Of a DNA stretch of 64,000 nt, positions 2,503-61,188 are shown one piece after another. The stretch is taken from contig CANQPB010000007.1 in assembly GCA_947625615.1 (NCBI GenBank), forward strand, positions 16,881-80,880, in the 5' to 3' direction. How positions within the stretch are numbered: position 1 is the first letter of the stretch; each line of letters starts with the position of its first letter. The stretch comes from an uncultured Clostridia bacterium. GTDB lineage: Bacteria; Bacillota; Clostridia; Oscillospirales; Ruminococcaceae. The notes beneath the pieces were generated by a model. That model saw only the letters and a list, made by a program, of their open reading frames with translations, did not search any database and was not told where the DNA came from. The position numbers were made by a program, and so were the translations under genes.

Positions 2503-3236
2503 TTTGTGTATTCTATGTATTTTTCAAACCCGTAGGCGATACCCTCGGGCGAGTGAGCGTCGCTCGAAAGAATCAGATTCGCGCCCTTATTTTTGATGTA
2601 TTCTGCGATCTCTGAAGACGGGTAGGGCTCGTCGGTATACCCCCTGAAAATCCCGCCGGTGTTCACCTCAAACACGGCGCCCGCACGAATCAGCCTGTCC
2701 GCCGCGGCCTGCCATGCGCTTCGGTAACGCATGTCCGAGCTGTCAAACGGAACCGATCGCTTAAACTTCTTTATCAAATCAAAGTGCCCGATAATATCCG
2801 GTCTCATGTCGGCAAGCGAACCGACCGCCTTAAAGTAGTCCGCCGCGCAGAGATAAAAATCCCCGGAGTAGAATTCATCAATCATGCCCTTAAGCATCTC
2901 CGGCGTCTCGTCGACGGAAATATACTTGTCGCCCTGCTTAAGGTAATGCACCGAGCCTATGACGTAGTCGAAACCGTCGGTCGGGGCAGGGGAGTATAGA
3001 TCCTGCTCAACACCGCAGTATATGTCAATCTGCCCGGTATACTTTTCCTTCAGCCTTTTGATCTCGGAAATAAACTCCCGATACCTCTCAAGCGGCAAGC
3101 AGCAGCTGTCAAAGGGGACGTACGAATGCGCCAGAAGCCCCAAATGCCTGACGCCCTTTTTAATCGCCGCACGGACATACTCCTCAGGATAGGTCAATCC
3201 ATCGCAGAATTTTGTGTGGACATGAAGGTCGGTCAT
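2499..3236 (-). CDS. Histidinol-phosphatase, PHP family
   Basis: [14 protein letters not shown]...; PHP metal motifs; last gene of the his operon. Confidence 0.85.
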
Positions 3237-3886
3237 ACCATCTTCTCCTGCTTCACTTTGTGATCAATAACATGCCTCGACGCGAGCTCCGCCCTGATTT
3301 CGTCCGGCGAAATTCCCATTTCAACCATCATCACCATCACATGATACATCAAATCCGCAACCTCGTAAACTGTCTCGCGGCGGTCTCCGCCCTTCGCTGC
3401 GATGATCACCTCTGTCGATTCCTCACCGACCTTTTTCAGAATCTTGTCGATCCCCTTTTCAAACAGGTAGCTCGTGTACGACCCCTCCGGGAGTTCCTTC
3501 TTGCGCCCCTCAAGCAGCCGGTAGAGCCCGTCGGTGCTGAAATCCTCCTCCGATTTTTCAATTTCGAGAATTGTATTTGTAAAACAGGAATCCGTTCCCA
3601 AGTGGCATGCCGGGCCGTCCTTATTGACTAAAACCAACAGCGCGTCGCCGTCGCAGTCCGCCGTTATCGAGACGATATGCTGATAGTTTCCGCTTGTCTC
3701 GCCCTTTAGCCACAGCTCCTGCCGCGATCTGCTGAAAAAGCATGTCAGTCCCTTTTTCATCGTAATATCGAGGCTTTTGCGGGTCATATATGCAAGGGTG
3801 AGCACCTTTTTCGACGTGTTATCAACAACAATTGCCGGGATCAGCCCGTCCCTGTCAAATTTAAGCTCATTTACTGTCATGTCCAT
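3233..3886 (-). CDS. hisIE: Bifunctional phosphoribosyl-AMP cyclohydrolase / phosphoribosyl-ATP pyrophosphatase
   Basis: HisI domain ([13 protein letters not shown]...[18 protein letters not shown]) followed by HisE domain ([14 protein letters not shown]). Confidence 0.93.
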
Positions 3887-3892
3887 TCTCCT

Positions 3893-4654
3893 TTAACATA
3901 TTCTCACGGGTATGCCGTTTTTGTCAAGAAGCTTTTTCAGCTCGTGGATCGCCACCTCGCGGTAGTGGAAGATCGATGCCGCAAGCCCGGCGTCCGCGTT
4001 CGGGACGCTTTTGAAAAGCTCCACAAAATCCTCGGCCGATCCCGCGCCGCCTGACGCGATTACCGGCACCTTTGCCGTGCCGCACACGTCGTTGAGCATC
4101 TCTATGTCGAAGCCGTTTCGCACGCCGTCGGTGTCTATCGAATTCAGCACGATCTCCCCGGCGCCCTCGTCAACGCAGTATTTAATCCACTCAACCGCGT
4201 CGATTCCGGTGTAGTCGCGGCCGCCGCGCCCGTAAACGCGGTACTCGCCCTTATGCCTCTTTACGTCCGCCGAGATCACCACGCACTGGCTCCCGTAACG
4301 CTTTGCGGCCTTTCTGATAAGCGTTCTGTCGGCAATCGCCCCGCTGTTAACGCTCACCTTGTCGGCGCCGCATTTCAGAACCCTGTCGAAGTCCTCAAAC
4401 GAGTTGATCCCCCCGCCCACAGTCAGCGGAATGAACACCTTCGAGGCCACCTTTGTCAGCACATCGGTAAAAAGCTTTCTGCCGTCCGACGAGGCTGTTA
4501 TATCGTAGAAGACGAGCTCGTCGGCCCCGCAGTCGCTGTAATATTCGGCGAGCTCCACCGGGTCGGCGATGTCCTTGTTTCCAACGAAATTAACTCCCTT
4601 TGTAACCTTGCCGTCGCGCACGTCGAGGCAGGCGATTATCCTTTTTTTCAGCAT
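3893..4654 (-). CDS. hisF: Imidazole glycerol phosphate synthase subunit HisF
   Basis: MLKKRIIACLDVRDGKVTKGVNF. Confidence 0.96.
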   Translation of the reverse strand: MLKKRIIACLDVRDGKVTKGVNFVGNKDIADPVELAEYYSDCGADELVFYDITASSDGRKLFTDVLTKVASKVFIPLTVGGGINSFEDFDRVLKCGADKVSVNSGAIADRTLIRKAAKRYGSQCVVISADVKRHKGEYRVYGRGGRDYTGIDAVEWIKYCVDEGAGEIVLNSIDTDGVRNGFDIEMLNDVCGTAKVPVIASGGAGSAEDFVELFKSVPNADAGLAASIFHYREVAIHELKKLLDKNGIPVRIC

Positions 4655-4673
4655 GTTTTCTCCCTTATGCGAT

Positions 4674-5390
4674 TTATTTTGCGATCCTCACGGCCTCGGC
4701 AAGGTCGATTGCGCCCTCGTAATAGGCCTTCCCTATTATCGCGGCGTCTATTCCGCTCTCCTTTAATGCGGCGATGTCGCCGATATCCGTTACCCCTCCC
4801 GAGGCGACGATCTCCATTTTCAGAGCCTCTTTGAGCTCCTTATAGAGCTTAAGATTCGCCCCGCGCATCTCGCCGTCCCGGCTTATATCGGTGCAGATGA
4901 TCGCCGAGACGCCCAAATCCTGCATTCTGCGTGCAAAGTCCCAAAGCCTTATGCCGGAATCCTCAAGCCAGCCCTTCACGGCGATAAACCCGTCCTTGAC
5001 GTCCGCCCCGACGGCCACAGCCGCCGTCCCAAAGCGGCGCACCGCCTCGGTTATAAGCTCCTCATTCTCGACCGCCGCCGTCCCGAGTATCACCCTTGAA
5101 GCCCCGGCCGAGAGGTAGTTTTCTATGGTCTCAATGCTCCTGATCCCGCCGCCGATCTCACTGAAAAGCCCGGGGATCCCGAGAATTTTTTTGAGCACCT
5201 GCGAGTTTTTCGCCGAGCCGTCCCTTGCGCCCTCAAGGTCGACAAGGTGAATGCACTCGGCGCCCTTTTTAATAAAATCGCAGGCGACGGAATGGGGATC
5301 GTCGCTGTAGACGGTCATTTTTTGGTAGTCGCCCTTTCTCAGCCTCACGGCTTTGCCGCCGTAGAGGTCAATAGCAGGAAAAATTTTCAT
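4674..5390 (-). CDS. hisA: ProFAR isomerase HisA
   Basis: MKIFPAIDLYGGKAVRLRKGDY. Confidence 0.96.
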   Translation of the reverse strand: MKIFPAIDLYGGKAVRLRKGDYQKMTVYSDDPHSVACDFIKKGAECIHLVDLEGARDGSAKNSQVLKKILGIPGLFSEIGGGIRSIETIENYLSAGASRVILGTAAVENEELITEAVRRFGTAAVAVGADVKDGFIAVKGWLEDSGIRLWDFARRMQDLGVSAIICTDISRDGEMRGANLKLYKELKEALKMEIVASGGVTDIGDIAALKESGIDAAIIGKAYYEGAIDLAEAVRIAK

Positions 5391-5393
5391 AAT

Positions 5394-5996
5394 TTACATC
5401 TCACAGAATGATTTCAGAATATTCAGCCCGGTCTTGCCGCTCTTTTCGGGGTGGAACTGACAGCCCATGACGTTTTTATCCGCGACCGACGCCGTAAGCT
5501 CGGCGCCGTAGTCAGTCACCGCGATCACCGAGGGCGACCCGGCGGCATAGTAGGAGTGCACGAAATACACGCACTCGCCCGATTTTATGTACTTAAATAG
5601 GGGGTGCCCCTCGAATTTCAGCTCGTTCCACCCGATGTGGGGTATTTTGAACCCCTCGGGAATCACGTCGGAAATCGGCCGCACGCTGCCCTTGATAAGC
5701 CCGAGGCCGCCGTGCTCACCGAATTCATAGCTTTTTTCCATCAAAAGCTGCATTCCGAGGCAGATCCCCAAAATCGGCTTTCCCGCGGCCGCCTCTTTAA
5801 GAATTGCGTCAAAGAGACCCGATTTTTTGAGGCGCTCCGCGGCGTCGGCAAAGGCCCCCACGCCGGGCAGAATGATCCTGTCCGCCTCGTTAAGACCCTC
5901 CGGCGTGTCGGCCATAACTGCCTCGGCACCTATAGCGCTGAGCGACGAGCGCAGCGAAAACAAATTCCCGACGCCGTAATCGACGATTGCAAGCAT
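5394..5996 (-). CDS. hisH: Imidazole glycerol phosphate synthase subunit HisH
   Basis: MLAIVDYGVGNLFSLRSSL, GICLGMQLLME, GCQFHPEKSG; start overlaps hisB stop (TGATG). Confidence 0.95.
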   Translation of the reverse strand: MLAIVDYGVGNLFSLRSSLSAIGAEAVMADTPEGLNEADRIILPGVGAFADAAERLKKSGLFDAILKEAAAGKPILGICLGMQLLMEKSYEFGEHGGLGLIKGSVRPISDVIPEGFKIPHIGWNELKFEGHPLFKYIKSGECVYFVHSYYAAGSPSVIAVTDYGAELTASVADKNVMGCQFHPEKSGKTGLNILKSFCEM

Positions 5997-6583
5997 CAGA
6001 GCGCCCCCTTCGTCGAGGGCACCGAATCGGAAAATCTCTGATCCGTTTCGGTCGCCGCCCGTAAAGACCTCGCCGCCGATTTGAACGCCCCCTCGATTAT
6101 GTGGTGGGAGTTTTTCCCGGCGAGCTGCCTTATGTGCAGGGTGACGCGCGCCTCGCGGACAAACGCCGCGAAAAATTCCTCGCAAAGCTCGGTGTCGAAG
6201 TCGCCGACCTTCTCGGCGGGAATCTCAAGCCCGTAGCCGAGATATGCCCTGCCCGAGATGTCGACCGCCGTCATGATCAGCGCCTCGTCCATCGGAATGA
6301 TTGCCTCGCCGTAGCGGCTAATGCCCTTTTTGTCGCCGACGGCGCTGTTGAACGCCTGCCCGAGCGTAATGCCGATGTCCTCGACCGAGTGGTGGAAATC
6401 CACCTCGGTGTCGCCCTTGCAGGTGACGGAAAGATCAAAACCCGAGTGCCTTGCAAACAGCGTCAGCATGTGATCCAAAAATCCCACGCCGCTCGAGACG
6501 TTTGCCTCGCCCTTGCCGTCAAGATTGATATATAACGAGATATCGGTTTCCGCAGTACTGCGCTTAATTTCGGCTGTTCTCAT
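5996..6583 (-). CDS. hisB: Imidazoleglycerol-phosphate dehydratase
   Basis: GVGFLDHMLTLFARHSGFDL, DFHHSVEDIGI, NSHHIIEGAFKSAARSLR. Confidence 0.96.
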   Translation of the reverse strand: MRTAEIKRSTAETDISLYINLDGKGEANVSSGVGFLDHMLTLFARHSGFDLSVTCKGDTEVDFHHSVEDIGITLGQAFNSAVGDKKGISRYGEAIIPMDEALIMTAVDISGRAYLGYGLEIPAEKVGDFDTELCEEFFAAFVREARVTLHIRQLAGKNSHHIIEGAFKSAARSLRAATETDQRFSDSVPSTKGAL

Positions 6584-7650
6584 ATTTTTGCCTCCGAATC
6601 AATAATTTCAGCTATATTTTTTACAAGAATATCCATTTCTTCGTCGCTGCCGACGGTTATCCGAAGATACTCCGAAATCCTCGGCTTATCGAAGTGCCGA
6701 ACGAGAATTCCGCGCTCCTTGAGCTTTTCGTAGAGCGTTTTTCCGCCGATTCCGGGGTAGGAGGCGAACAGAAAATTAGCCGAGCTGTCGGTAACTTTAA
6801 AGCCCAAACCGCGCAGTTTCGCGGAGATCCGCTCTCTCGTCGCCGCGATCTTTTTGCAGTTGGCAACGGTGTAGTCTTCGTCCGAAATCGCCCCGATCCC
6901 GGCAGCAAGGTTTGTCCGCGAGAGGTTATACGGGTTTGTCGAGTAGATGATCCGGTAAATGTCGTCGATAATGTCCTTGCAGGCGACGGCAAATCCCACC
7001 CTTGCGCCCGCCAGCGAACGCGACTTTGAAAAGGTTTGCACTACGATCAGATTTTGATATTTTCTCACAAGCGGCACCGCACTGACGCCCCCGAAGTCAA
7101 CATACGCTTCGTCGATGACGACGATATTTTTGGGGTTTGATTCCGCAATCCTACAGATATCCTCCTGAGAAATTGTCAATCCCGTCGGCGCGTTGGGGTT
7201 GGCGATAAAAATGTTTTTTTCAATCCCGATATAGTCCTTAGGGTCGATCGAAAAATCTTGCCTCAGCGGAATGACCGTGAAGGGCACGCCGTTTATCGCC
7301 GCGAAAACCGAGTAAAACCCGTAGGTGATGTCCGCAAACGCTGCGGGGGAGCTCGGCGAGCAAAACGCCTTGAAGATAAAATTCAGCGCCTCGTCCGAAC
7401 CGTTCGTAACGGCCACATTCTCTTTCTCGACTCCCAGCCTCTCGGCGATGAGGCCTCTCAGCCCGCCGCCGTCAAGCTCGGGGTAGAGCTGCAGCCTTTT
7501 TGCGGCCTCCGCAGCCATCTCGACGACTTTCGGCGAGGGCGGAAAGGGCGATTCGTTCGTGTTCAGCTTGATAAATTTTTTTCCGACCGGCTGCTCGCCC
7601 GGAACATAGGGTTCCAAAGCCCTCAGCTCCGGCCTAAGAAATTCAGACAT
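6580..7650 (-). CDS. hisC: Histidinol-phosphate aminotransferase
   Basis: KLNTNESPFPPSP...TFSKSRSLAGARVGFA; operon context. Confidence 0.93.
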   Translation of the reverse strand: MSEFLRPELRALEPYVPGEQPVGKKFIKLNTNESPFPPSPKVVEMAAEAAKRLQLYPELDGGGLRGLIAERLGVEKENVAVTNGSDEALNFIFKAFCSPSSPAAFADITYGFYSVFAAINGVPFTVIPLRQDFSIDPKDYIGIEKNIFIANPNAPTGLTISQEDICRIAESNPKNIVVIDEAYVDFGGVSAVPLVRKYQNLIVVQTFSKSRSLAGARVGFAVACKDIIDDIYRIIYSTNPYNLSRTNLAAGIGAISDEDYTVANCKKIAATRERISAKLRGLGFKVTDSSANFLFASYPGIGGKTLYEKLKERGILVRHFDKPRISEYLRITVGSDEEMDILVKNIAEIIDSEAKI

Positions 7651-56040: not shown

Positions 56041-56628
56041 TTACTGACCGGCGATTTCCCCGACAATTTCCCTCAGCTGACCAACTCCCTCATCGGTTAC
56101 GGCCGAAAATTCAACGACCGTCAGCCCTTCGCAGCTCGGAAGCTCGGTCTTAAAGGCCTCGGTTCTTTTGGCCCTCTCGGTCTTGTTCAGCTTATCCGCC
56201 TTTGTCAGAACGACTATAAAGGGAATCCCGCTGTCGATGAGAAAGTCTATCATATTAAGGTCGTCCTTTGTCGGCGGGTGGCGCATGTCTATAAGCTGCA
56301 TGACAAGCGCAAGATCCCGCTCGCCGTCGCCGAGATATCCGCCGATAAGCTCCCGCCACCGTTTTATGTCTGCCTTCGATACCTTTGCATAGCCGTATCC
56401 CGGCAGATCGACAAAGTTTATGTTTTCAAGCCGATAGAAGTTTATCGTCGCAGTCTTTCCCGGCACGGCGCTCACCCGCGCCAGATTCTTTCGGCCGAAA
56501 AGCCTGTTTATCAGCGAGGATTTCCCCACGTTCGAGCGCCCCGAAAAGGCTATCTCCATTCTGTCCGAAGGGGGAAGCTGGTTAAAAGTCCCGTAGGAAG
56601 CCGAAAATTCTGCCTGCGAAAAGTTCAT
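56041..56628 (-). CDS. engB: Ribosome biogenesis GTP-binding protein YsxC/EngB
   Basis: EIAFSGRSNVGKSSLINRLFGRKNLARVSAVPGKTATINFY. Confidence 0.95.
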   Translation of the reverse strand: MNFSQAEFSASYGTFNQLPPSDRMEIAFSGRSNVGKSSLINRLFGRKNLARVSAVPGKTATINFYRLENINFVDLPGYGYAKVSKADIKRWRELIGGYLGDGERDLALVMQLIDMRHPPTKDDLNMIDFLIDSGIPFIVVLTKADKLNKTERAKRTEAFKTELPSCEGLTVVEFSAVTDEGVGQLREIVGEIAGQ

Positions 56629-59024
56629 CAGCTTCTTGCCCCCACGGCCGCCGCCGTCTTCTTGAAAGCCGTCGGGATAACCGGTTTTTTGGCCTCCGGC
56701 ATGATGAGCGCTGTGTTTAAAACGTCCTCAATCGTCTCGGCGAAGACGAATTCCACCGACGCCTTTACCTTTTCGTCCACCTCTTCAAGATCCGGCTTGT
56801 TGTCGCTCGGGATAATCACCGTCTTTATGCCTGCCTTGTAGGCGGCCATTGTCTTTTCTCTAAGCCCGCCTATTGCGAGCACCTTTCCGCGCAGCGTTAT
56901 CTCGCCGGTCATCGCCACGTCTGATCTCACGGGTATCCCCGAAAGCTCCGAAATAAGCGCGGTCGCGAGAGTTACGCCCGCCGACGGGCCGTCCTTGGGC
57001 ACGGCGCCCTCCGGCGCGTGGATATGAATGTCCTTTTTCGAGTAAAAGTCCTTGTCGATGCCGTATTTTTCCGCAACGCTCCTTGAATAGCTCACCGCTA
57101 TCTTCGCGCTTTCCTTCATAACGTCGCCCAGTGAGCCCGTCAGCTCGATAGCCCCTTTTCCGTCCATCGAGAGGACTTCCAGAGGCATTAGCGTTCCTCC
57201 CACCGAAGTCCACGCGAGCCCGTTCACCTCGCCGATCTGCGGCTTATCCAACTTTAAATCGGAGGTGAATTTTCTCACGCCGAGATATTTTTCCACCGTC
57301 TCGGGGGTTACGGTTATCCTTGCCGATGTTTTGGAAACTATTTCCTTTGCGGCCTTGCGGCAGACCGACGCTATCGACCTTTCAAGCGTCCTCACGCCGG
57401 CCTCGCGGGTGTAAAAGTCTATGAGCTCGTAAAGCCCGGCGTCGCTGAATCTGAGCATATTGCCGTTGAGACCGTTTGCCTTAAGCTGCTTCGGCACAAG
57501 ATGGCGCTTTGCAATCTCAAATTTTTCCTCGCGGGTATAGCTCGGCAGCTCGATGATGTCCATTCTGTCAAGAAGCGGGGGAGCCACGGTGTCAAGGTTA
57601 TTCGCCGTGGTGACAAATAAAACGTCGGAGAGATCAAAGGGTATCTCAAGGTAATGATCCCTGAATTCCTTGTTCTGCTCGCTGTCGAGAACTTCAAGCA
57701 TGGCGCTCGAGGGGTCGCCCCTGAAATCGTTCGACATCTTGTCAATCTCGTCAAGAAGTATAAGCGGATTTGAGGATCCCGCCTGCCTTATCGCCGCGAT
57801 TATTCTGCCCGGCATCGAGCCTATGTAAGTCTTTCTGTGGCCTCTTATGTCGCTTTCGTCGCGTATTCCGCCCAGAGAAACCCTTGCGTATTTCCGCCCG
57901 AGGGCCTTTGCTATCGACTTTCCGATCGAGGTCTTGCCTACGCCGGGAGGGCCGACAAGGCAGATTATCTGCCCCTTGACGTCGGGAATGAGGTTTCTCA
58001 CCGAAATAAGCTCAAGAATACGCTCCTTGACCTTTTTCATGCCGTAGTGATCCTTGTCAAGCTGCGCCGACACCTTTTCGATGTCGAGCTTATCCGAGGT
58101 CTTTGTATTCCAGGGGAGCTCTAAAACGGTGTCGAGATACCCCCTTATCACCGCCGCCTCCTGCGAGCCGAAGGGCATTTTTTCCAGCCTTTTCGCCTCC
58201 GAGACGAGCTTTTCTACGCTCTCCTGCGGCAGCCCTAATTTTGAAATTTTTTCGAGATATAAATAGCTCTCATCGGCGGGGTCTTCCTCCTCGCCGAGCT
58301 CCTCGCGGATTATTCTCATCTCCTCGCGAAGGTAATATTCCCGCTGCCCGCGGTCGATAGCCTCTCCCACGCGCATGTGAATGTCCTTTTCTATGGCGAG
58401 GATCTGCGTTTCTTTCGCAAGTATTGCAAGAATCACCGCAAGCTTGTCGCTCAAAGACTGCGCCTCTAAAATCTCCTGCCTTGCCTCTGCGGGAATGCTT
58501 ATGTTAAAGGCGATGAGCTCGTAAAGGTTTTCGGGGGTCTTCGCGTTCTCAACGGAGGTTTTCAGCACGTCAGGCATTCTCGGAACGACGGCGGAATACG
58601 CCGTAAACGCGTTTTTGAGCACCCTCATCAGCGCGTATAGCTCCTCGTCTGAGGCATGCTCGCGGGAAAAATTCTTAAGCGGCCTGACTATTGCATACAT
58701 TCCCACGCCGTCTTTGTTTAAATCGATAAGCTTTGCGCGGTAAAGCCCCTCTACATTCACGCGGGATATTCCGTCGGCGGTCTTGACGATCTGCTTGACC
58801 TCGCATACCGTTCCCACGCGGTAGACGTCGTCGAAGCCGGGGTCTTTCACCGAGGGGTCGCGCTGCGCGGTCAGAAAGACGGTTCTGTCGCCGTCCAACG
58901 AGAGCCTGAGCGACTCGAGAGAGCGCTGCCTCGAAACGTCGAACCTAAGGTTAAGTCCCGGGAAAACCACCACGTCTCGCGTGGCAACGCAGGGCAGGGT
59001 GGTGAAAGTAATTTTTTCGGACAT
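56628..59024 (-). CDS. lon: ATP-dependent protease Lon
   Basis: [76 protein letters not shown]. Confidence 0.97.
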
Positions 59025-59189
59025 TAAAAATACCTCTTTTTTATTTTAAAGTTGAAGCGTCAAATCAATAGGTCTGCGCTCCTATTATAGCAGACCCCGC
59101 GCAATTTTGCAATAGATAAAATAATGGATTATATATTGCAGAAAAAGCGGGCGGAAATTTCCTCCCGCCCGCCGCAAAACGACGCCTTT

Positions 59190-60896
59190 TTATTTCTTTT
59201 TCATATGCTTTCTGACAAACTCGTTCAGCGCGTCCTCGTCGATATAGGAATACCAATCCTCGGGCAGGGCCCTGAACCCCTCTTTTTCCATGGCCGCCAC
59301 CGCTATCTCGGTCAGCACGTCTTCGTCAACATAATCTAACCAGTCATAGGGGATCGCCTTTATCCCGCCTTTTTCGGCGGCCTCTTTAGCGATTTTCGAA
59401 AGAACGTCTTCGTCAACAAACGGAAGCATCGGCGTCGGAACGCTGTCGAGGCCTTCCCCGGCTTCGCCGCTCCCGCTTCCGTCTTCCTTGCCGGCGGGGG
59501 AGTTCTCGCCTTCGCTGTTAAGATTTTTACTCTTATTTATGCGTTTTCTTACAAACTCGCTCAGCGCGTCCTCATCGATATAGGGATACCAATCCTCGGG
59601 CAGGGCCCTGAACCCGTCTTTTTCCATGGCCGCCACCGCTATCTCGGTAAGCACGTCTTCGTCATCATAGTCAAGCCAAGTCTCGGGAATTGCGCTTATT
59701 CCGTCTTTTTCGGCGGCCTCTTTAGCGATTTTCGAAAGAACGTCTTCGTCAACAAACGGAAGCATCGGCGTCGGAACGCTGCCGAGGCCTTCCCCGGCTT
59801 CGCCGCTCCCGCTTCCGCCTTCGCTGTTAAGATTTTTACTCTTATTTATGCGTTTTCTTACAAACTCGCTCAGCGCGTCCTCATCGATATAGGGATACCA
59901 ATCCTCGGGCAGGGCCCTGAACCCGTCTTTTTCCATGGCCGCCACCGCTATCTCGGTCAGAACATCTTCGTCATCATAGTCAAGCCAAGCCTCGGGAATT
60001 GCGCTTATTCCGTCTTTTTCGGCGGCCGCTTTTGCGATTTCCGAGAGAATATCGTCGTCAACGTAATCCAGCCAGGTGTCGGGAATCGCGCTGATTCCGT
60101 TTTTTTCCGCGGCTTCTTTCGCGATTTCCGAGAGAACGTCGTCGTCAACGTAATCCAGCCAGGTGTCGGGAATCGCACTGATTCCGTCTTTTTCGGCGGC
60201 TTCTTTTGCGATTTCCGAGAGAATATCATCGTCAACATAATCCAGCAAGGTATCGGGAATTGCGCTTATTCCGTCTTTTTCGGCGGCCGCTTTTGCGATA
60301 TCGCCGATATATTCCTCGTCAACAAACGGCAGCCAATCCTCGGGTATTGCGTTAATCCCGCCCTTTTTGACAGCGTCTACCGCCAGCTCGCCTATAAGCT
60401 CGTCGCTTAAAAACGGCAGCAGCGACGCCGGAACGCTGTCGAGGCTTTCTATGGCCTCGCTATTCCTGCCGCCGTCTTCTTTGGAGGCAGGGGAGGCTTC
60501 GTCTTCGCTCAGGAGATTTTTCCTCACAACGCTGTCCACCTGGGCGTCGACAAGTATCGGGGCTATTTGATTTATCTCCTCGGCCGACATTTCCGGCGCT
60601 TTCTCCTCGCTTATGTCGGTGACGAGCTTCGCCGCGCGCTCGCTGCCAAGTATCCTGTCCACGCTGACGTCGAACAGCGAGGCCAGCTCCATAAGGTTGG
60701 CGATGTCGGGGCGGCTTTGGCCCCTTTCCCAGTTCGAGACCGCCTGAAAGCTCACGTTCAGCCTGTCGGCAAGCTCGGATTGGGTGATTCCCGCTGCCTT
60801 GCGAAGCTTAGAGATGTTTGCGCCGACCCTCATAATGTCGAAGACCTCGCTCTGAGGTTTCTTTAAAATTTCGTTTTTTGATTTTCCGAAGATCAT
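59190..60896 (-). CDS. XRE-family HTH regulator with ~13 tandem 29-aa repeats
   Basis: MIFGKSKNEILKKPQSEVFDIMRVGANISKLRKAAGITQSELADRLNVSFQAVSNWERGQSRPDIANLMELASLFDVSVDRILG then repeats of AIPDTWLDYVDDDxLSEIAKEAAEKDGIS; RBS AAAGGA before 60896. Confidence 0.85.
   Translation of the reverse strand: MIFGKSKNEILKKPQSEVFDIMRVGANISKLRKAAGITQSELADRLNVSFQAVSNWERGQSRPDIANLMELASLFDVSVDRILGSERAAKLVTDISEEKAPEMSAEEINQIAPILVDAQVDSVVRKNLLSEDEASPASKEDGGRNSEAIESLDSVPASLLPFLSDELIGELAVDAVKKGGINAIPEDWLPFVDEEYIGDIAKAAAEKDGISAIPDTLLDYVDDDILSEIAKEAAEKDGISAIPDTWLDYVDDDVLSEIAKEAAEKNGISAIPDTWLDYVDDDILSEIAKAAAEKDGISAIPEAWLDYDDEDVLTEIAVAAMEKDGFRALPEDWYPYIDEDALSEFVRKRINKSKNLNSEGGSGSGEAGEGLGSVPTPMLPFVDEDVLSKIAKEAAEKDGISAIPETWLDYDDEDVLTEIAVAAMEKDGFRALPEDWYPYIDEDALSEFVRKRINKSKNLNSEGENSPAGKEDGSGSGEAGEGLDSVPTPMLPFVDEDVLSKIAKEAAEKGGIKAIPYDWLDYVDEDVLTEIAVAAMEKEGFRALPEDWYSYIDEDALNEFVRKHMKKK
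59213..60425 (-). repeat. Intragenic tandem repeats (87-bp unit; 309-bp higher-order duplication)
   Basis: gatttttactcttatttatgcgttttcttacaaactcgct block at 59522 and again at 59831. Confidence 0.85.
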
Positions 60897-61112
60897 TTTG
60901 ACCGTCCTTTCGTAATTTGATGTCTTCATTATGCCACTTCCGAGTAAAACTGGCCAGCAAGCGCTGATTGAATTGCGCCGCTCAACTGCTGCTTGAATAA
61001 AGTATACCTTATTTTTTATCGCTGGGCAACAGGCTTTCGAAAATATTTCAAAAAAATTTTCCCAAACGCTTGACAAACCCGCGTCTTTGTGGTAACATAC
61101 TTTCTCGGAGAT

Positions 61113-61188
61113 GCGCCCGTAGCTCAGTGGATAGAGTGCCCGGCTACGAACCGGTAGGTCGAGAGTTCGAATCTCCCCGGGCGCGCCA
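61113..61188 (+). tRNA. tRNA-Arg (ACG)
   Basis: GCGCCCG/CGGGCGC acceptor, anticodon loop CTACGAA, encoded CCA; promoter TTGACA-17-TAACAT upstream. Confidence 0.95.

Follow-up and report, generated by a model that had tools for sequence, protein, structure and literature searches.

The operator OR2 lies at -42 of the lambda promoter PRM, and OR1 and OR2 are 24 bp apart. When bound cooperatively at OR1 and OR2, lambda CI activates its own promoter PRM (PMC3708714). The RRNPPA systems carry TPR or TPR-like helical pairs, with a gene for the peptide ligand in most of them, and PrgX and Rgg are also devoid of recognisable TPR sequence (PMC9765709). The regulator gene described here is located on the minus strand (59190-60896, 568 aa) of a window of 64,000 nucleotides, this term designating the whole stretch of DNA that was analysed. 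Like lambda CI, its product has an HTH_3-type fold, and, as in lambda, two predicted operators separated by about 24 bp precede its gene; the one nearer the gene lies at about -42/-43 and adjoins a weak -35. Unlike lambda CI, an alpha-solenoid array replaces the C-terminal dimerisation/autocleavage domain: the C-terminal half gave no peptidase family match of the CI Ser-Lys peptidase/dimerisation type and consists instead of helical solenoid units. Also, in contrast to the lambda CI locus, no third operator or opposing PR promoter was identified at the gene. With PlcR, Rgg, PrgX and ComR of the RRNPPA group, the protein shares an XRE helix-turn-helix (HTH) followed by a C-terminal alpha-solenoid.

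The coding sequence begins with ATG at 60896 and ends with TAA at 59190-59192. A GAAAGGA/GAAAGGG ribosome site precedes the ATG, and both site and start are conserved in the five orthologues, each from a different species. Residues 28-80 (60657-60815) match the XRE/Cro-CI helix-turn-helix family HTH_3 (PF01381, 1.9e-16, above the cut-off), confirming the XRE regulator of the original prediction. The nearest solved structures to this HTH are the DNA-binding domain of ImmR from ICEBs1 (7t8i; Z 12.6, 1.9 Å over 65 residues, 37% identity) and the P22 c2 repressor (Z 11.9, 31% identity), and SinR is also among the matches. Neither ImmR nor P22 c2 has a solenoid, the ImmR entry comprising the DNA-binding domain alone. 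Directly C-terminal to the HTH, alignment revealed a degenerate unit 0, SAEEINQIAPILVDAQVDSVVRKN (aa 104-128, 60513-60587), which is helical in the model and common to distant family members. An acidic flexible linker 1 follows (aa 129-153, 60438-60512; pLDDT below 50 at 131-151).

Downstream, we counted 13 units of 29 aa, as read from a draft assembly, where about 13 had been predicted; the predicted span is exactly the coding sequence. Repeat analysis and the AlphaFold2 model placed the units in three blocks (7+3+3): D1 with units 1-7 and a cap EFVRKRINK (59841-60437), D2 with units 8-10 and a cap (59532-59780), and D3 with units 11-13 and the C-terminal cap (59196-59444). Comparison of the repeat families identified the segments between them as linker 2, a shortened copy of linker 1 (59781-59840), and linker 3, another linker 1 copy (59445-59531). 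Every block opens with a SVPxxxLPF unit and closes with a cap (EFVRK...) that resembles the C terminus of the protein itself. Successive units start 29 aa apart, save for two steps of 45 and 54 aa in which a linker intervenes, and Tandem Repeats Finder gave a period of 87 bp for the array.

The full protein was modelled by AlphaFold2 (4-row alignment) with a mean pLDDT of 79.7, the solenoid blocks being mostly at 80-96 and the three linkers below 50. D1 modelled together with unit 0 and linker 1 reached a mean of 81.6, with about 90-97 in units 2-6. The structure prediction that had been proposed as a check thus returned confident alpha-solenoids, and the net charge is -69 across residues 131-568, as expected for the acidic solenoid-like array that had been announced. 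Foldseek and structure comparison gave the solenoid only weak shape matches (PUF, Sel1 and designed-repeat shapes). Pumilio proteins came first (Z 8.3, 10.7 Å over 233 residues), a match that lies below the meaningful level for repeats and may reflect a common arrangement only. PUF repeats are triple-helix units of 36 aa, RNA-binding and eukaryotic, whereas the units here are of 29 aa; the array is strongly acidic, which argues against RNA binding, and the window protein has no PUF match in Pfam. No Pfam model covers the repeat in the window protein and the seven relatives scanned, in line with the expectation that it lies outside well-characterised domains, and no credible sequence relative was found among solved structures. 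The family is not described in the curated libraries searched, and literature searches found no paper on an XRE HTH combined with an expandable 29-aa solenoid.

The longest identical stretch in the array is 142 bp at lag 309 (59816-59957 versus 59507-59648), which corroborates the 309-bp duplication noticed beforehand; a second higher-order offset of 336 bp comes in addition. Array units reach 100% DNA identity with one another, far beyond chance, in agreement with the suggested recent expansion. The Gly/Ser/Glu linkers are present as well, but they are not mere low complexity: the inter-block linkers (KNLNSEGENSPAGKEDGSGSGEAGEGLDSVP) resemble the HTH-solenoid linker (KNLLSEDEASPASKEDGGRNSEAIESLDSVP), at the DNA level too, and are degenerate copies of it. 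The higher-order repeat is thus the whole linker+solenoid module, including a former C-terminal cap, and in the window lineage the solenoid grew as 87-bp units and such modules were duplicated in frame. Most pairs of recently duplicated units have dN/dS values of 0.06-0.3; units 8/11 (0.87, from four differences only) and the older pair 2/5 (0.7) fall outside this range. Since most pairs are under purifying selection, the array is a conserved scaffold and not an antigen-like variable region, and the term "hypervariable" first applied to it is not borne out.

Orthologues are found between a tRNA-Arg gene (ACG; 61113-61188 in the window, plus strand) and the lon protease gene (56628-59024, minus strand), a conserved downstream neighbour with its own promoter, in genomes G003, G005 and G016. 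In G011 the orthologue adjoins the same tRNA-Arg and is cut off by the contig end, which makes the unit number unreadable. The number of units is 13 in the window, 9 in G005, which has its own 3-unit higher-order repeat, and 6 in both G003 and G016; the proposed copy-number variation is therefore seen between species, in a comparison of draft assemblies with one genome per species. Three further genomes (G010, G017, G023; Lon 84-85% identical) keep the order lon, tRNA-Arg, MFS with no XRE-solenoid gene there and a lon-to-tRNA gap of 219-240 bp. The carriers are dispersed over the lon tree, which implies losses or repeated gains. The tRNA-Arg/lon gap of another species (L084, G007:C15, 3343-5595) is occupied by an unrelated gene of 750 aa whose start resembles a signal peptide, and the gap may thus be a small insertion site. 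The isolate names (Lapin-) suggest that the MAGs of two relatives come from rabbit gut.

No prophage was seen around the XRE-solenoid gene. A phage origin was considered and rejected, as the solenoid has no credible PHROG family and its sole full IMG/VR relative lies on a lon-encoding, probably bacterial contig; a defence link was similarly discarded, the PADLOC matches being to the generic HTH only. The IMG/VR contig, filed as viral (L121, 3300021387_005004, 3001-6886), carries in succession an XRE gene with LAPFL repeats, TetR and lon; its DNA is probably bacterial, and it offers another, distant example of an XRE-solenoid gene close to lon.

In searches with a repeat profile, 20 of the 247 genomes from the order matched, as did 2 of the 249 in the phylum sample, the window's own genome being one of these two. 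Most matched proteins combine an XRE HTH with "LAPFLSxExLDxLV" units, while a few carry the units on coiled-coil or secreted-looking proteins. The window gene has all the traits of membership (XRE HTH, unit 0, PFL-type units, paired TTCAAGC operator, -10 at +38). The architecture had been called unusual; the window gene is the most expanded among the orthologues found, but it belongs to a wider, unannotated XRE-solenoid family. The suggested search of the own genome (G000) found no other close solenoid copy, but a divergent XRE with related LAPIL units on contig C27. This second XRE of the genus (L150 = G000:C27, L159, L160) has divergent LAPIL-type units of fixed length and no TTCAAGC operator. 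In two genomes of one genus (L097/L140, L095/L141), a short XRE gene (122-138 aa frame) shares a few bases with a second gene, which encodes a coiled coil and LAPFL units. The arrangement looks like a division of HTH and solenoid between two proteins, and the paired operator precedes the XRE gene.

The best clue to function had escaped the original prediction: an operator/promoter module. Read on the minus strand, this module contains two predicted operators: site 1, TTCAAGCAGCAGTTGAG (60981-60997, 10/12 consensus positions), and site 2, TTCAATCAGCGCTTGCT (60956-60972), 25 bp from site 1. TTCAAG-N5-CTTGAA palindromes are conserved across the five aligned orthologous upstream regions, and distant XRE-solenoid genes have the same pair in the form TTCAAGC-N3-GCTTGAA. 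A site scoring at least 10/12 precedes 19 of 25 family members, against 0.3 expected from dinucleotide shuffles (maximum 3 in 100 sets), and at least 11/12 is reached in 14 of 25 against 0.02 in shuffles. Of the ten XRE genes used as controls, three being members of the divergent LAPIL paralogue group, a single one scores 10/12, and its core differs. No TTCAAGC-type site lies upstream in L121 and G008 (chosen start uncertain).

A family-conserved promoter (60928-60956, minus strand) consists of a -35 TGGCCA (60956-60951), 17 bp and a -10 CATAAT (60933-60928). The distance from the beginning of the proximal 15-mer (site 2) to that of the -10 hexamer (at least 4/6) is exactly 38 bp in 20 of 22 members, and in 15 of 17 once close relatives are removed, compared with a maximum of 5 at any offset in 1000 shuffles, both the consensus and the selection of site 2 having been partly learned on the same sequences. 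None of the ten control XRE genes has this 38-bp arrangement. The -35, followed by the 17-bp spacer, lies immediately next to the proximal site and is weak in many members; this geometry is post hoc, having been tested, and having held, after a -35 overlapping site 2 had failed in the first promoter test (4 seen versus 3.9 expected). Inter-site spacings fall into groups of 24-27, 33-35 and 42-44 bp (Rayleigh test for a 10.5-bp period, p about 7e-4, n = 16), G173 (22 bp) and G040 (38 bp) being off helical phase. Judging from these motifs, transcription should start near 60921, about 25 bases before the ATG. A possible second promoter, TTGCCC-17-TATACT (61001-61029, minus strand), was found upstream in the window species, G003 and G011, with site 1 just downstream of it.

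When the genus was scanned, the tandem operator occurred once per genome in G000, G003, G005 and G011, always at the XRE-solenoid gene; two further matches in other species are apparently due to chance. Across the order, nine XRE-solenoid promoters, that of the window included, carry the pair, and it also occurs close to another XRE gene whose C-terminal region is acidic; the remaining matches, among those examined, were not family-like. A tandem match on C42 of the own genome was rejected, since it belongs to an XRE gene without solenoid and has a different half-site core.

The proximal site is centred near -43, counted from the -10, and the paired operators and -10 reproduce the OR1/OR2-PRM geometry of lambda, which points to CI-like positive autoregulation. 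The fixed operator-to--10 distance favours it as well, since a repressor needs no exact distance, while an activator touching sigma beside the -35 does. By analogy and from sequence, we estimate at about 0.6 the probability that the protein is a self-controlling factor of the lambda-CI/XRE type, with positive autoregulation by cooperative dimers. The HTH would bind, presumably as a dimer, the two palindromes ahead of its own gene; site 2 would abut the weak -35 where OR2 sits at PRM, with the second palindrome 25 bp upstream in the window and, in relatives, farther away by about one or two additional helical turns. Cooperative binding together with positive autoregulation would produce a switch-like ON state. 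The solenoid would most probably bind a partner (protein or peptide) and/or bridge DNA-bound dimers, and in this way set when the switch holds; this role as partner-gated sensor and/or inter-dimer contact is conjecture on our part. In this scheme we infer dimerisation, activation and not repression, cooperativity, ligand or partner binding, and tuning by repeat number.

The main rival is a simple autorepressor using the same two sites, which would block RNA polymerase at the abutting -35, and in the window clade also at the upstream promoter, and keep its own level low and constant. Many XRE regulators with operators in their promoters repress themselves, and an operator that abuts the -35 can also repress, which counts against autoactivation. 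In the window clade, moreover, binding at site 1, just downstream of the upstream -10 TATACT, would repress. Nevertheless, autorepression explains poorly a distance that is fixed to the base pair across families, or a -35 that is weak in many members, and we regard it as rather unlikely. It is improbable that the protein is an RRNPP-like pheromone receptor, in which a secreted peptide, held in a TPR-like groove, would turn the HTH on or off. The layout of XRE HTH and alpha-solenoid is the same, and PrgX, ComR, PlcR and Rgg appear among the structural matches, mostly through the HTH; but Pfam detects no TPR, the units are of 29 and not 34 aa, and neither flank of the gene contains a plausible secreted-propeptide ORF. 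Also, we know of no RRNPP-type receptor whose unit number varies from 6 to 13 between sibling species.

A last pair of alternatives concerns the neighbourhood and the array itself. The protein might regulate the neighbouring lon as a proteostasis switch: lon is adjacent in the four carriers whose contig reaches it (that of G011 ends inside the gene), and the distant L121 gene likewise precedes TetR and lon. However, a core block of the lon promoter is conserved in species without the XRE-solenoid gene, a terminator-like hairpin (59146-59173, minus strand) separates the two genes, lon has no tandem operator and other family members are not near lon, so that we give this idea hardly any credence. 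That the 13-unit count is a product of assembly, or of neutral repeat slippage without function, seems only a little less far-fetched. The assemblies are drafts and the G011 contig ends within the array; against this stand the distinct substitutions carried by the units, the two distinct module offsets, dN/dS well below 1 in most pairs and the independent 3-unit duplication in G005.

A wider regulon was not found for the self-activating switch that we favour, single near-perfect sites being about as frequent as a reversed-pattern control; most of the seven non-promoter single-site matches examined lie inside open frames. That its own gene is the only detectable target is odd, and real targets may thus be missed or use single sites.

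On a broader and more tentative level, which we hold to be possible but short of an even chance, these genes would form an undescribed Clostridia family of chromosomal switches that activate themselves in the manner of CI. An expandable alpha-solenoid would serve as their sensor or cooperativity arm, and gain or loss of whole modules by recombination would retune the switch. Self-activating regulators with such a promoter geometry are best known from phages. If true, a chromosomal family with a copy-number-variable arm would constitute a natural experiment relating repeat number to cooperativity or partner choice. Also, thanks to the paired operator and the exact 38-bp distance, the binding site and promoter of the regulator can be predicted from sequence; few uncharacterised XRE families of uncultured gut bacteria offer this.

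Two minor observations were made alongside. Repeats related to the family units ("LLPYMSESKVDELVKTEYDKNGLKN") occur at L099 and L111 (G080) in membrane-bound- or secreted-looking proteins without HTH. In the lon promoter, the block ATCCATTATTTTATCTATTGCAAAAT (59084-59130; L076, L078, L079), upstream of TATAAT, is strikingly conserved with and without the XRE gene, and is possibly the site of another regulator.
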